A DNA stretch of 64,000 bases from NCBI RefSeq assembly GCF_003841465.1, contig NZ_REFZ01000007.1:62001-126000 (forward strand), written 5' to 3'. Below the pieces are notes generated by a model that did no database searches, had not been told where the DNA came from, and saw only the letters and a program-made list of their open reading frames with translations. Position numbers and translations under genes: made by a program. The first letter of the stretch is position 1, and every line of letters begins with the position of its first letter. Source of the DNA: Natrarchaeobius oligotrophus (GTDB taxonomy: Archaea > Halobacteriota > Halobacteria > Halobacteriales > Natrialbaceae). This document shows, one piece after another, positions 11,351-25,787 of this stretch.

Positions 11351-11602
11351 ACCCGTCGAACCGCGATCCGCCGCCTCGTATCCGCGATTTGCGACCCGGT
11401 AGCCCACCGGGGTGGCGAGTACCACTGCCCAAGAGTCACGCGCGGTCGACGACCAGCGTGTATTCGCGTCCAGGACCGCGATCACGGCCCGTTCCGAGCG
11501 AGTTGAGCCGGCGGTCCGAACCGAACTTCGCTCTCGTCGTCATTTTTCAGGCGACTATTTCGATCGAAAGTAATATCATCGATGACAGTGTATCGTTCGT
11601 GT

Positions 11603-12208
11603 ATGTGGCCAACAGATTTATATCTCATCAGTGGTCCAACGGGTCTGGAAGCGACCGGGTACGTCGCTCACGGGTGGGTAATCGAGGCGTACCGAACGCT
11701 CTCGCCGGTCGAGCGAGCGGGGGTCCAGTTCGCCGGCGTGTTGGTCGTCGCGAGCGTACTGCTGGGGATGCTCCAGGGATACGGTAGCCGCGCGGTCGAA
11801 AAGTCCCGTCGCAGCCCGGTAATTTCGGTCTGCGTGGGGCTGCCGTCGCTGCTCGTCGTGGGTATGCTCTCGAGTACCGGCTACTTCATCCTGGGTTCGA
11901 GCCTCGGCACGTTTTTCGGCGTCATCCTGGTCGTGTTCGGACTGACGGTCCTGCCAGCCGCGGCGGTGATCGGCGTCGCATCGATCGGCACGACGATCAG
12001 TGCGCGTCTCGGACGGGACGCACTGTGGCTCGGGGTCTTCGTCGGAAGTCTCGTCGCCGGCCTCGCCGGACTCTCGCTCGCGACGACGGTCGCGCTGGCG
12101 AGCGTGGCGATCCCGCTCGGGCTCGGGACCGGCGTCCGCATTCTCGTCGGTTCCGGCGGCGCAACCAAACCCGAGGAACGAAGCGTCCCGCCAGCGAACA
12201 AGATCTGA
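11603..12208 (+). CDS. Haloarchaeal membrane protein of unknown function
   Basis: This is a 201-residue protein of unknown function. After a short N-terminal segment it has four to five hydrophobic spans (about residues 36-56, 70-92, 96-128, 135-170 and 168-190) and a charged C-terminal tail, so it is an integral membrane protein. A TATA-like agtaatat at 11570-11577 suits a leaderless start at 11603; an in-frame ATG at 11582 would add seven residues. It sits between the L11 gene and the L1 operon on the opposite strand. Its TGA stop is the first base of a dispersed palindromic repeat. Confidence 0.72.
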   Translation: MWPTDLYLISGPTGLEATGYVAHGWVIEAYRTLSPVERAGVQFAGVLVVASVLLGMLQGYGSRAVEKSRRSPVISVCVGLPSLLVVGMLSSTGYFILGSSLGTFFGVILVVFGLTVLPAAAVIGVASIGTTISARLGRDALWLGVFVGSLVAGLAGLSLATTVALASVAIPLGLGTGVRILVGSGGATKPEERSVPPANKI

Positions 12209-13988: not shown

Positions 13989-16529
13989 ATGAGTGACGAA
14001 CCAACACGCGAAGAATCGGAACGAAGTGGCGAATCGAGCGGAAACCGATCGATCGGGTCGTATCTGGTGCCCGGGGTGATCAGGCGGCGACTCATCGCGA
14101 AGACGCTCGTGGCGATCGTCGCAATTCTCCTGTTGACCGCCGCGATCAGCGTTTTCTTCTACGTCGGTATCAGCGACCAGCTCGAGGGTCAGGTGGACGA
14201 CCAGGTTGAACAGACGACCGAACTTCACGCGAACGTCCTCGACACCTGGTTGAACGACCGCGAACTCGAACTCGAGGACATTTCCCGAGACGACGTGCTA
14301 ACGACGGGTGATTCGGACGAGATATCGCGGTATCTGGAGGGGCAGGCGTATACGGGAGAGTTCTCGGAACTGTATCTGGTGGATCGGGAAACCGGTGAAG
14401 TGATCGGGAGCTCGAGCGATGACGCCGTCGGCGAGGACATGCTCGATCGGATGGGACAGGATCTCGGCTCGCCGCCGTCGTTCATGACGACCGAACAGTA
14501 CACGAACTTCGAGGGAGACGAGGCGATCGCGATCGGCCAGCAACGGATTATCCTCGACGAGCACCTTCTCATCGGTGAGGTCGACGCCCACGATCCCGGT
14601 CCGAACCTGCCCCAGGGGATCGACGGCGCGAACACCGTCGTGGTCACCCAGGACGGCGAACCGATATTCGGGGACGAAAGCGTCGATTCGTCGGTGATCG
14701 AACCCGGGGTCGAAGGCATCGCGAAAGTCAGCCACGACGGATCGCTCTACTCGTACATTCCGAGCTATCGCTACTCGTCGTACGCCGGCGAAGACGTCTA
14801 CGTGGTGACGAGGACGCCCGAGGACGTCGCGTTCGCCGTCCGAGACGAGGTTCAGCTGAGCTTCATCGTGACGATCGTTCTCACCGGCTTCGTCTTCGTC
14901 GCCGTCGGACTGGTCGGCGGTCGGAGCGTCTCGAGCGAACTGACTCGACTTCGAAACCGTGCACAGACGATGGAGGAGGGCGATCTTTCCGTCGACCTTG
15001 AGACGGGACGAGTCGACGAGATCGGCTCCCTCTACGACAGTTTCGCGGCGATGCGCGACTCGCTTCGCGAGCAGATCCGGGAGGCACAGGCGGCTCGCGA
15101 GGAGTCCGAAGCCGAGCGCGAACGCGTCCAGCGCATCAACGATCAGCTCGAACGCGCGGCTCACGAGTACGGCGCGGCGATGGGCGCGGCCGCAGACGGC
15201 GATCTCGCCGTCCGCGCGGACACGGAAGTCGAAAACGAGACGATGCGGGAGATCGGCGAGGACTTCAACGAGATGCTCGACGAGATCGAAGCCACCGTCG
15301 CGGACCTCCAGGCGTTCGCGACGCAGGTCGCGATCGCCAGCGAACAGGTGACGGCCTCGAGCGAGGAGGTCCACTCCGCGAGCGAGCAGATCAGCGACTC
15401 CGTCCAGGAGATCTCGGCCGGGGCCGAGCGACAGAACGCGTCGCTCCAGCAGGCGACGAGCGAGATGTCCACCCTCTCGACGACGACCGAGGAGATCGCG
15501 GCCTCCTCGAACGAGGTCGCGGATCTCGCGGCGCGAACGGCGAACACCGGCGAGGCGGGACGGGAAGCCGCACAGGACGCGATCGAGAGCATGACCGAAA
15601 CCGAGACCGAAGCAGAACGCGCGGTCGAGGAGATCCGTGCCCTCGAGTCCGAGGTCGGCCAGATCGACGACCTCATCGAGCGCATCCAGCAGATCGCCGA
15701 ACAGACGAACATGCTCGCGCTCAACGCCAACATCGAGGCCTCGCGCTCGGCGAGCGGACAGGACGGCGACGGATTCGGCGCCGTCGCCCAGGAGATCAAG
15801 GAGCTGTCCAACGACGCCAAAGTGGCCGCAAACCAGGTCGAAAGCCGCCTCGAGAGCATTCGAGAGCAGACGGTTCGCTCGGCCGAGGAGGTCGAGGAGA
15901 CGAGCGCCCGACTCGAGACGGCGAGCGAACAGGTCGAGGAGGCCGTCGAGGCGCTCGAAGAGATCGCGTCGTTCGCGACCGAAACGAATACCGGCGTCCA
16001 GGAAATCTCGGCGGCGAGCGAAGAACAGGCCGCCACGACGCAGGAGGTCGTCGCCATCGTCGACGAAGCGGCGACGATCAGCGAGGAGACGACGGCCGAA
16101 GCCGAGAGCGTCGCGGCCGCCACCGAGGAGCAGACGACGGCGCTGACCGAGGTCTCCGGGTCCGCCTCGCAGCTGTCACAGCAGGCGACGCAGCTCTCGC
16201 AGGCGCTCGATCACTTCGAAACCGACGTCGACAACGACGGCGGCATCGTCGGTGACGACGAGTTCGAACTCGAAGCCGACGAGCGCGACGAAAGCGCGGT
16301 CGACGGGGACGGCGAAGCCGACGCCGCTGCGAAACAGGACGGCGAAACCGACTCGAGTCAGTCGGACGATCCGCTCGAGGAGCCGGTCGCCATGCCGGCG
16401 GACGAATCGACGGCGACCGACGACGAACGGACGGACTCGACCGACGCCGATTCGAGTGAACCGGCGTCTGTCGACGAGGACGACGCGAACGTCTTCGAGT
16501 TCCACGACGACGAGGCCGACGACTCGTAA
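13989..16529 (+). CDS. Membrane methyl-accepting chemotaxis-type transducer (Htr)
   Basis: This 846-residue sensory transducer has transmembrane segments at about residues 39-61 and 290-312 that bound an extracellular sensor of about 225 residues, probably a Cache-type ligand domain. A HAMP domain follows the second span, a second HAMP-like segment comes near 390-440, and the long coiled-coil signalling domain runs over about 450-760. The hairpin tip (QQIAEQTNMLALNANIEASRS near residue 575) binds CheA/CheW in this family. The last 80 residues are an Asp/Glu-rich tail. No chemotaxis kinase genes are nearby. The ligand is unknown. Confidence 0.95.
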   Translation: MSDEPTREESERSGESSGNRSIGSYLVPGVIRRRLIAKTLVAIVAILLLTAAISVFFYVGISDQLEGQVDDQVEQTTELHANVLDTWLNDRELELEDISRDDVLTTGDSDEISRYLEGQAYTGEFSELYLVDRETGEVIGSSSDDAVGEDMLDRMGQDLGSPPSFMTTEQYTNFEGDEAIAIGQQRIILDEHLLIGEVDAHDPGPNLPQGIDGANTVVVTQDGEPIFGDESVDSSVIEPGVEGIAKVSHDGSLYSYIPSYRYSSYAGEDVYVVTRTPEDVAFAVRDEVQLSFIVTIVLTGFVFVAVGLVGGRSVSSELTRLRNRAQTMEEGDLSVDLETGRVDEIGSLYDSFAAMRDSLREQIREAQAAREESEAERERVQRINDQLERAAHEYGAAMGAAADGDLAVRADTEVENETMREIGEDFNEMLDEIEATVADLQAFATQVAIASEQVTASSEEVHSASEQISDSVQEISAGAERQNASLQQATSEMSTLSTTTEEIAASSNEVADLAARTANTGEAGREAAQDAIESMTETETEAERAVEEIRALESEVGQIDDLIERIQQIAEQTNMLALNANIEASRSASGQDGDGFGAVAQEIKELSNDAKVAANQVESRLESIREQTVRSAEEVEETSARLETASEQVEEAVEALEEIASFATETNTGVQEISAASEEQAATTQEVVAIVDEAATISEETTAEAESVAAATEEQTTALTEVSGSASQLSQQATQLSQALDHFETDVDNDGGIVGDDEFELEADERDESAVDGDGEADAAAKQDGETDSSQSDDPLEEPVAMPADESTATDDERTDSTDADSSEPASVDEDDANVFEFHDDEADDS

Positions 16530-16621
16530 TCCGGTCGGTCCGTTCCGGATCGGCGAGACTAATTTTCACGTCTGGTATTCGGGGGCAAAGAACCAAGACG
16601 GTGGTCCGATTTTCCGTTGGC

Positions 16622-18667
16622 ATGAGTTACGGGCTCGATCTGGGACGGCGGACGATTCGCGTTGCGAGGGGCGATCCGGCGGAGCCGATCGTCACGTCGA
16701 CGGCCCCCGTTGTCTTCGCAATCGACGACTCGCACCGCGAGTCCGACGCCGCTTCGCCGGCCGACGCACGATCCGTTTCGCGCGACGACACGACGTACGC
16801 GATCGGATCGGACGCGATCGACGCAGCTGACGCCGTCGACGCGACCCCCCGGACGCCGTTTTCGGACGAACCGCTTCTCTCCGACGACGACGGAGCGACT
16901 CTTTCGCTGGTACTGGACGTCGTTCTCGAGAGCCCCGACGGCGAACAGCTCTGCTATACGGTTCCCGGCGCGCCGGACGACGACGAGCCCTGGTCGATCG
17001 ACGACCACTGTCGACTCGTCGAGTCGTGTCTCGTCGAACTGGGAGTCTCGCCGACGCCGATCGATCGCGGATTCGCCGTCGTTTACGACCAGCTCGAAGC
17101 CGACAACTACACCGGCCTCGGCGTCTGTCTCGACGGAGAGCGGACGAACGTCACGCTCGCGTACTACGGCGTGCCGGCGCTTTCGTTTTCGATCCCGATC
17201 GGAGACGAATGGGTCCGTGATCGGGCGACCGCGGAACTCGATCGCGATCGGGCGGACGTTCGACGTGCGCTGACCGACTTCGAACTCGACCCGGACGCGA
17301 CGACGGGCGAAATTCAGCGCGCGCTCGCGGAAGCGTACGACGACCTGGTCGAACGGCTGGTCGACGCGCTCGGCCGTCGGGCCGTCGAGCACGAACTCGA
17401 GCGCGGGCTGTCCGTCCCCGTCGCGGTCGCCGGCGAGGGCGCAGTCGACGGCCTCGAGTACCTCGTCGGCGGCCGATTCGACGCGGCGGCTCTCCCGTTT
17501 TCGATTCGCGGCGTTCGCCGGGCCGACGAACCCGCCGAGAGCGTCGCACGGGGTGCCCTCGCCGCTGCAGCGGCCGGCGTCGACGGAGACGAGGGTATCG
17601 TCCGGACTCGAGACGAGTGGGCCTCGAGCGATTCGAGTTCGAGCCCGTCGATGTCGGAAAGTCCCGACGAATCCGAGTCGGCAACCGCCGCGTCCGACCG
17701 GGCGACGCTTTCGTTCGACGACGAGCGTCCCGAACTCGACGAGACGGCCACCGACGCCGTCGATCAGTTGTTCGAGCGGCTCGGAAACCGGGACCAGGAG
17801 ATCGAGTCGGTGCGGACCGACGTCGACGCGGTCGCCGCCGCCGTCGAGACGCTCGAGCGACGGACCGCGTCGGCAGAATCGGTCGAGTCACTCGAGACGC
17901 GACTGGAGGCGCTCTCCGATCGCGTCGACGACGGTGCGGACGATCTCGACGAGGTCGCGGATGCGCTCGACGACGCCGTAGCCGACCTCGAGGAGGCCGC
18001 GAAAGCCGACGAAGTGGTCGCGCTCGAAGGGAGAGTTTCCGGACACGGCGAGGAACTGGCCGCCGTCGGGGACGAGGTCTCGGATCTCGCCGACGAACTC
18101 GAAGAACTCGCCGAACGCGTCGACGCGCTCGAGTCGCGGCTGGCCGACGACGCCGACGCCCGCGACGAACGAGTGGCCGAGACGGTTCGAGAGCGCCTCG
18201 AGGGAACGATCGAGGACGAGGTCGCACGAACGACGGCGGAACACGTTTCGGACGCGGTGGACGATCGACTCGAGGAGACGGTGAACGATCGACTCGAGCC
18301 GATCTCCGAACGGATCGGAGCGCAAGCGGACCGACTCGATACTCTCGAGGATCGAACCGCCGCTCACGACCACCGTTTCGATCGCGTCGACGCGTCCCTC
18401 GCGGAACGGAGCACGTCTGACGGCGTCTCCGCGGAGTGGCTCGAGGACGAACTCGAGGCGCTCCGTGTCGACCTCGAGGACCGACGCGTCGAAGACGATC
18501 CCGGGACCGTGCGACCAGCGCTGGTGACGTCCGCTCTCGCCGGCGCGGGCGCTGCGGGGGTCGTCTCCGGCGGAGTCACTGCGGCTGCGATCGATGCCGG
18601 GCTCGGAGCTGCGGTGGCCGTCGCCGGCGTCGCCGTCGTCGGAACCGCCGTCGTCCTCGCCCGGTAA
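16622..18667 (+). CDS. Actin/Hsp70-fold (ASKHA) protein with coiled coil and C-terminal membrane segment
   Basis: This is a 681-residue protein. Residues 1 to about 325 carry actin/Hsp70-type nucleotide-binding signatures: a phosphate-1 loop YGLDLGRRTIRVARG at 3-17, a phosphate-2-like GLGVCLDGERTNVTLAYYG near 165, and an adenosine-type VAVAGEGAVDGL near 267. A disordered linker follows, then about 280 residues of heptad-rich coiled coil, and an Ala/Gly/Val-rich hydrophobic tail (about 645-681) likely to span the membrane. The arrangement suggests a membrane-tethered cytoskeletal or scaffold ATPase. The ATG at 16622 is preferred because it starts the ASKHA fold. It follows the transducer gene by 92 bases. 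The function is inferred. Confidence 0.7.
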   Translation: MSYGLDLGRRTIRVARGDPAEPIVTSTAPVVFAIDDSHRESDAASPADARSVSRDDTTYAIGSDAIDAADAVDATPRTPFSDEPLLSDDDGATLSLVLDVVLESPDGEQLCYTVPGAPDDDEPWSIDDHCRLVESCLVELGVSPTPIDRGFAVVYDQLEADNYTGLGVCLDGERTNVTLAYYGVPALSFSIPIGDEWVRDRATAELDRDRADVRRALTDFELDPDATTGEIQRALAEAYDDLVERLVDALGRRAVEHELERGLSVPVAVAGEGAVDGLEYLVGGRFDAAALPFSIRGVRRADEPAESVARGALAAAAAGVDGDEGIVRTRDEWASSDSSSSPSMSESPDESESATAASDRATLSFDDERPELDETATDAVDQLFERLGNRDQEIESVRTDVDAVAAAVETLERRTASAESVESLETRLEALSDRVDDGADDLDEVADALDDAVADLEEAAKADEVVALEGRVSGHGEELAAVGDEVSDLADELEELAERVDALESRLADDADARDERVAETVRERLEGTIEDEVARTTAEHVSDAVDDRLEETVNDRLEPISERIGAQADRLDTLEDRTAAHDHRFDRVDASLAERSTSDGVSAEWLEDELEALRVDLEDRRVEDDPGTVRPALVTSALAGAGAAGVVSGGVTAAAIDAGLGAAVAVAGVAVVGTAVVLAR

Positions 18668-19828: not shown

Positions 19829-20299
19829 TCAATCGAAGTCCGGAAGGTCCTCCGGCGGTTCGTACTCGGCCTCCCAGTCGATGTACTCCGATTTGAGGAC
19901 GACGGAGACGATCTGTCCGAACTCCGTCAGCTCGGCGTTGATCGACGACACCGTTCCCCAGGTGTCGAGGTCGGGGTGGTACTCCTGCGTCTGCCAGTCC
20001 TCCGGAATGCCCGGCGCGTGATAGCCGACCCGGTCGGCGAAGTCGTCCCAGAAGAAATCGAACTCCGAAAACAGCGAGAGGTCTCGAGTGATGCCGTACT
20101 CGCGCTCGGTGAGGTCGGTGTCCGCGAGCCACTCCTCGAATGCCTCCTCCCACGCGCCCGCCTCGAGAAACGCCTGGAGTTCCTCGCGACGGTAATCGAT
20201 CTCCTGCGTGCCGTCGGCGCTGATCGTGGCGTCGTCGTACTCGTTCGGATCGACGAACTCCAGTTCCGGCGGTTCGGGCGGGTCGACCTCGAGTGTCAT
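19829..20299 (-). CDS. Acidic haloarchaeal hypothetical protein
   Basis: This 156-residue soluble protein starts MTLEVDPPEPPELEF. The longer open frame upstream overlaps the SHOCT gene in antisense, so the ATG at 20299 is used. It is rich in Asp, Glu and Trp (FDFFWDDFADRVGY; DWQTQEYHPDLDTWG) and shows no signal peptide, membrane span or metal motif. I recognise no family. It is convergent with the zinc-finger gene and divergent from the SHOCT gene. Confidence 0.75.
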   Translation of the reverse strand: MTLEVDPPEPPELEFVDPNEYDDATISADGTQEIDYRREELQAFLEAGAWEEAFEEWLADTDLTEREYGITRDLSLFSEFDFFWDDFADRVGYHAPGIPEDWQTQEYHPDLDTWGTVSSINAELTEFGQIVSVVLKSEYIDWEAEYEPPEDLPDFD

Positions 20300-20410
20300 A
20301 CGACGGAGTACGGACGGTCGGCGGATAAGAATTCCCACCCGCGACCGGTCGCGGTTCGGGTGACAGGGCGGATCCCTACAGTTATTCCTGCCGGGATCGT
20401 TTGCGAACGT

Positions 20411-25103: not shown

Positions 25104-25787
25104 ATGTCCCACCCAAGACTCAACCGACGCAAGTTCGTTGCTGCGGCAGGTACTGCAAGTGCGCTCGTTCTGGCCGGCTGCGCTGACGAAGGTCCGGGTG
25201 ACGAGGAAGAAGATCCGGCCGCCGACGAAGAGGATCCGATGGACGACGAGGAAGAGGATCCGATGGACGACGACGAGGAAGAGGACCCGATGGACGACGA
25301 CGAGGAGGAAGACGAGGACGAGACCTACTCGCTGACGGTCACCGTCGAAGACGACGAAGCCGAACCCGTCGAGGGTGCGACCGTCACGCTCGAGGAAGAC
25401 GGCGCGATGGACGAAGACGAGGACGAGGAAGACGAGAACGGATTGGACGACGAGGACGAAGAAGATGAGGACGAAGAAGACGAGAACGGACTCGACGACG
25501 AGGACGAAGAAGACGAGGACGAAGAAGACGAGAACGGACTCGACGACGAGGACGACGAAGAGTGGGAAGACGAAACCGACGAGGACGGGCAGGTCGAGTT
25601 CGAGGACCTCGAGGACGGCGACTACTTGGTTCACGCCGAGTACGAAGGCGACGAGGCCGAGGACGAAGTCACGATCGACGGCGACGACGAGGAAGTCACC
25701 CTCACGCTCGGCGAAGAGGCCGAAACCGACGACGAGGACGACGTGATGGACGACGAGGAGGACAACGGCGAAGACGACGACCTCTGA
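25104..25787 (+). CDS. Tat lipoprotein with carboxypeptidase-regulatory-like domain split by acidic repeats
   Basis: This is a 227-residue exported protein. The N-terminus has a Tat-like RRKFVAAAGTASALVLAGC with the lipobox Cys at 26. An acidic region with DPMDDDEEE repeats (about residues 35-73) leads to a beta-sandwich domain: SLTVTVEDDEAEPVEGATVT starts it and GQVEFEDLEDGDYLVHAEY finishes it. Three copies of a 16-residue ENGLDDEDEED-type repeat (48-bp DNA repeats, 25434-25577) interrupt the domain in a surface loop. Regulatory-like domains of this kind usually sit in cell-surface proteins. The function is unknown; the repeats may vary in number between strains. Confidence 0.85.
   Translation: MSHPRLNRRKFVAAAGTASALVLAGCADEGPGDEEEDPAADEEDPMDDEEEDPMDDDEEEDPMDDDEEEDEDETYSLTVTVEDDEAEPVEGATVTLEEDGAMDEDEDEEDENGLDDEDEEDEDEEDENGLDDEDEEDEDEEDENGLDDEDDEEWEDETDEDGQVEFEDLEDGDYLVHAEYEGDEAEDEVTIDGDDEEVTLTLGEEAETDDEDDVMDDEEDNGEDDDL
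25434..25577 (+). repeat. Three 48-bp tandem repeats inside the lipoprotein gene
   Basis: Units begin at 25434, 25482 and 25530, each opening with GAG AAC GG and encoding ENGLDDEDEEDEDEED. The third unit diverges at its end. The DNA repeats are near-identical including synonymous positions, which suggests recent expansion by slippage or recombination. Confidence 0.85.

Follow-up and report, generated by a model that had tools for sequence, protein, structure and literature searches.

The window that we analysed, the whole 64,000-nucleotide stretch of Natrarchaeobius oligotrophus DNA, contains on its + strand a gene at 16622..18667 that encodes a coiled-coil, predicted tail-anchored volactin paralogue of 681 amino acids plus stop. 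We refer to this divergent coiled-coil volactin paralogue, that is, the window gene and its orthologues, as CCV. The mechanically derived open reading frame opens upstream, at a GTG at 16601; the aligned relatives begin at the ATG at 16622 with M-x-x-GLDI and, judged from this alignment, the open reading frame is real and that ATG is its conserved start.

Four regions, all on the + strand, follow one another in the product. The actin-fold head (residues 1-323; 16622..17590) was delimited by Pfam (Volactin PF25216, residues 1-316), AlphaFold2 and structure comparison, and it is followed by a disordered linker rich in Ser and acidic residues (residues 324-373; 17591..17740), in which residues 327-371 had pLDDT values under 50 in the full-length model. 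The coiled coil (residues 374-623; 17741..18490) was modeled as helices 374-598 and 604-623 and would be about 37 nm long if it formed one continuous helix. Its heptad-range periodicity of LIVMFYW residues reached z = 9.5 versus shuffles, where the head gave -0.6 and the linker 0.3, and the family alignment showed a conserved motif at its start (residues 377-395; 17750..17806) with the consensus ADDAIDQLFDRLANRDDEI. The protein ends in a Gly-rich hydrophobic hairpin, a predicted membrane anchor (residues 636-681; 18527..18664; consensus AGGGGAGxVAGG...), with a hydropathy peak of 2.4 at 661-679 in a 19-residue window, while no position before residue 600 exceeded 1.0; helices were predicted at 645-656 and 659-680 with low confidence. 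The full-length model had a mean pLDDT of 74.4 and a pTM of 0.52. Thus, the original prediction of a disordered linker in place of a substrate-binding domain and of a C-terminal hydrophobic segment agreed with what we found, residues 324-681 consisting of linker, coil and tail with no substrate-binding domain after the head; the coiled coil was also present, but at about 250 rather than about 280 residues. Weak Pfam and NCBIfam matches to residues 375-660 (P10, DUF1664, TraP and others) were below cut-off and were rejected as coiled-coil matches.

The head matched Pfam Volactin over residues 1-316 with 354 bits (E 1.2e-105; cut-off 35), covering positions 1-321 of the 321-position profile, which is a full-length match, and HSP70 was absent among the 25 Pfam families shown for the window protein. 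An AlphaFold2 model of residues 1-330, built from 29 sequences of the window and related loci, had a mean pLDDT of 86.6 and a pTM of 0.87. In Foldseek and VIA-align comparisons the model grouped with BeeR, MamK, MreB and actin, with a Z score of 25.3 against MamK over 284 residues (3.4 A). PDB sequence searches with the window protein or a CCV profile returned no actin, merely coiled coils or noise, and so the assignment of an actin fold is based on the Pfam match together with the structure comparison; the canonical volactin profile did match MamK in a PDB search (E 3.9e-9). It is therefore well supported, by profile and model, that the window head belongs to the haloarchaeal actin family studied as volactin and salactin. 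An actin-type fold had been expected of the N-terminal region, and modeling and structural search of the head bore this out. The layout had further been described as unlike those of MreB, FtsA, crenactin and DnaK, which was right, but the volactin/salactin family had not been taken into account.

The source genome carries a second volactin on contig C18, a protein of 342 amino acids that scored 465 bits to Pfam Volactin and is almost identical to canonical haloarchaeal volactins (locus L002); because this separate canonical copy exists, the window gene is a paralogue. The window CCV stood outside the canonical group, being placed apart in the tree, having 681 rather than about 340 amino acids, and lacking the GAG motif. 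CCV and canonical volactin are not genomic neighbours. In several family genomes (e.g., G151, G137, G247 and G107) they lie about 55-80 kb apart on one contig, and in others they are further apart or on different contigs. Directly preceding canonical volactin, we found a gene for a DUF7139 (PF23600) membrane protein in 47 of the 47 haloarchaeal loci examined, which include L002, L003-L032, L150-L160 and L182-L187. These proteins share 35-74% identity outside the source genome, whose own copy is at L002:501-1403. Passages of the salactin paper describe the gene as generally single copy, duplicated in Natronomonas (written 'Natromonas' there), and as having poor synteny (PMC10746226); the adjacency of DUF7139 and volactin in 47/47 loci stands although poor synteny was reported. 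DUF7139 may be a better candidate than CCV for a general membrane partner of haloarchaeal actin. In family f3, one genome (G106; loci L142, L143, L166 and L167) had two equal-scoring canonical copies, together with one more copy that was broken into two matches on a third contig.

The nucleotide pocket was compared in an alignment of 29 canonical and 49 CCV heads. The original prediction of phosphate and adenosine motifs of the ASKHA type in the N-terminal third was correct for phosphate-1, where the window CCV keeps GLDLG and the Asp was retained in 47 of the 49 CCVs, but the phosphate-2 and adenosine loops of the family are altered. The GAG of phosphate-2 was invariant in the canonical copies (29/29), whereas the first Gly was found in 24 and the second in only 2 of the 49 CCVs, with Gln in 34/49; the window CCV reads LDGERT against the canonical FGAGMT. 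Additionally, one residue of the adenosine loop was deleted in all 49 CCVs. The canonical profile placed the phosphate-2 stretch opposite the MamK GAG loop, and the Asp that precedes this loop in MamK is Ser in the canonical copies. From these altered loops, we infer that ATP hydrolysis by CCV would be weak or absent, and the CCV head is probably a poor ATPase. The distant coiled-coil proteins of family f7 retain the phosphate-2 glycines, and thus loss of ATPase activity is not essential to the coiled-coil layout.

CCV was found in 88 of the 125 sampled genomes of Natrialbaceae plus Halorubellus, as counted by hand from the listed matches (87, plus G266 from a second listing), and some match to the head query occurred in 124/125. 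The frames of CCV type were mostly 800-1400 amino acids long and the canonical ones about 340-430. Named orthologues came from Natrialba, Natrinema, Natronorubrum, Halopiger, Haloterrigena, Halovivax, other Natrialbaceae and Halorubellus; in the class sample, the matches listed with values better than 1e-87 were all long frames and all in the Natrialbaceae/Halorubellus family. CCV was missing from 37/125 family genomes and from nearly all other haloarchaea, Haloferax volcanii included, and the source genome was the sole carrier among the four sampled of its genus. Among the matches listed for both, canonical volactin accompanied CCV in every genome. A single-sequence search of the genome contigs returned no relative; an alignment query did find relatives. 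The same layout was present in more distant proteins, 775-878 amino acids in length, from three of nine genomes tested in family f7 and two of three in family f10. When 26 genomes from other families were searched for distant coiled-coil volactins, only canonical copies or a fragment turned up.

The hydrophobic tail ended all 25 complete named orthologues and the proteins of 20 further family loci. Total length ranged from 575 to 1313 amino acids as the length of the coil varied, and this differed even between close species (totals of 937 in Natrialba asiatica, 884 in N. aegyptia and 806 in N. taiwanensis). The coil of one relative (L064) contains near-perfect short repeats, AAHDSRLEETEDQV, which suggests that coil length changes through gain and loss of repeats. 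A maximum-likelihood tree built from 86 heads, with several long branches and a root position that is assumed, placed the CCVs in one clade (100/100) and the five distant coiled-coil proteins in a group of their own (92/83), while a 100/98 branch separated the canonical haloarchaeal and methanogen volactins from the CCVs plus the distant set. This topology is compatible with a single origin of the coiled-coil layout if the root lies among the canonical copies. The description of the window protein as a membrane-bound actin-fold filament or scaffold was thus supported as an architecture, one that is common to many genomes.

The genes that recurred around CCV at the other 20 loci of the family were rpl11, cutA, a cupin gene, a gene for a protein of unknown function and a HAD phosphatase gene, and a search near CCV for one conserved functional partner found ordinary chromosomal synteny alone. 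Three other genes of the window deserve mention. The first, at 11582-12208 between the L1 and L11 ribosomal genes, encodes a conserved protein of 208 amino acids with no Pfam match and is retained in synteny in several family loci. A short gene at 19832-20329, also without a Pfam match, is 73-87% identical in the family loci that have it, and the product of 25104-25787 is very acidic, with repeated DEDEE-rich segments that follow an N-terminus resembling a lipoprotein signal.

In the source genome, a transducer gene (13989-16529) with HAMP and MCP signal domains lies on the same strand (+) as CCV and ends 92 bp upstream of it, an arrangement from which a role for CCV in positioning chemosensory arrays had been considered conceivable. 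When co-occurrence was checked by tblastn, however, the transducer had no match in 55 other CCV or distant-CCV loci (some genomes being represented twice), and a congener (G312) carries a 68%-identical orthologue at this site, adjoining the same DUF and HAD genes, and lacks CCV there; we therefore regard array positioning as extremely unlikely. That CCV is a functionless relic is also very unlikely. The absence of CCV from three sampled congeners and from more than a quarter of the family genomes would fit a relic, as would the long branch on which the window copy sits in the tree of heads, but the listed CCV matches were free of internal stop codons, and the tail and the motif at the start of the coil are conserved, both of them in the window copy. 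Moreover, dN/dS was determined in pairs of close orthologues, where head values were 0.16-0.35, coil values 0.30-0.43 and tail values 0.04-0.33; thus, all three parts are under purifying selection and CCV is not a decaying copy.

The reading that we favour, although we give it somewhat less than an even chance, is that CCV is a tail-anchored, hydrolysis-poor actin paralogue linking volactin filaments to the membrane at a distance set by the coil. The C-terminal hairpin would probably sit in the cytoplasmic membrane, as the low-confidence prediction of the tail suggests, and the actin head would be kept in the cytoplasm. The coiled coil probably dimerises and would serve as a spacer, about 37 nm long here and reaching roughly 130 nm in the longest relatives. 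CCV would then be accessory to the canonical volactin filament, its head docking onto, capping or nucleating filaments that the coil and tail would tie to the membrane. In a narrower form, which we consider rather doubtful, CCV would insert into or cap the filament of its sister canonical actin, with the membrane distance set by a coil that varies between species, and would be an archaeal membrane adaptor derived from actin. The main point against CCV as a volactin tether is the constant presence of DUF7139 beside canonical volactin; the distance between the CCV and volactin genes also speaks against it, and 37/125 family genomes and nearly all other haloarchaea, including H. volcanii, manage without CCV. 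Alternatively, CCV may act apart from volactin and build a membrane-attached structure of its own, as an actin-head filament or a coiled-coil network with a role in shape or stiffness, like a membrane-linked protein of the intermediate-filament type. This is a serious possibility that we think will probably not hold: a conserved locus away from volactin, a long coil of variable length under purifying selection and a head strongly diverged from a near-invariant canonical copy all speak for it, but the altered phosphate-2 loop makes ATP-driven polymerisation by CCV alone less likely in this subfamily. No genome among the matches listed had CCV without canonical volactin, which also counts against independence, but weakly, as canonical volactin is near-universal in the family. 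Improbable in our view is a role as an accessory of chromosomes or ploidy, in which CCV would act during segregation by tying volactin/salactin filaments, or DNA, to the membrane, as the low-phosphate phenotype of salactin might suggest. Passages of the salactin paper report an effect of salactin on DNA partitioning when ploidy is low (PMC10746226), and a long coil ending in a membrane tail would fit a fixed anchor point, but the Pfam search found no DNA-binding domain in CCV and its neighbours are not segregation genes. Accordingly ranked, the accessory tether of volactin filaments is preferred to the independent membrane scaffold.

In the passages available of the papers on the two characterised proteins, each paper dealing with a single canonical actin, volactin (VolA, HVO_2015) of H. 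volcanii forms dynamic filaments whose tips are held at the membrane (PMC10869688), and salactin (VNG0153C) of Halobacterium salinarum forms dynamic filaments that grow from the poles (PMC10746226). According to a passage of a later paper, H. volcanii has no identified actin homologue other than volactin (PMC7617734). These passages name no membrane tether for either filament, and the titles, abstracts and passages of the salactin, volactin, DUF7139 and archaeal-actin literature that were covered did not describe a CCV paralogue. Within that literature, the volactin/salactin family is already known and the coiled-coil, tail-bearing paralogue appears to be new. The CCV family combines an actin head with a long spacer and a predicted membrane tail in a single chain, which makes it a direct candidate for the attachment of haloarchaeal actin to the membrane. 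It is also a multi-domain paralogue within an archaeal actin family that, in the passages covered, has been described from single-domain members.

Like CCV, volactin and salactin match PF25216 over the full actin domain and have an actin fold close to MamK and MreB. Unlike CCV, they are single-domain proteins of about 340 amino acids with intact phosphate-2 glycines and, in the loci examined, an adjoining DUF7139 gene, whereas CCV has an added linker, coiled coil and hydrophobic tail, an altered pocket and a different locus. The nearest structures to the CCV head were MamK (Z 25.3), MreB (about 24), BeeR (23.8) and actin (about 23), at 11-19% identity, and in none of these do we know of a long coiled coil at the C-terminus with a hydrophobic tail after it. 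FtsA and RodZ, the membrane-linked partners of bacterial filaments, are comparable only in how they work, namely in tethering a filament to the membrane. FtsA uses a short amphipathic helix for this purpose and RodZ does not belong to the actins, whereas CCV differs from both in uniting head, spacer and predicted anchor within one chain.
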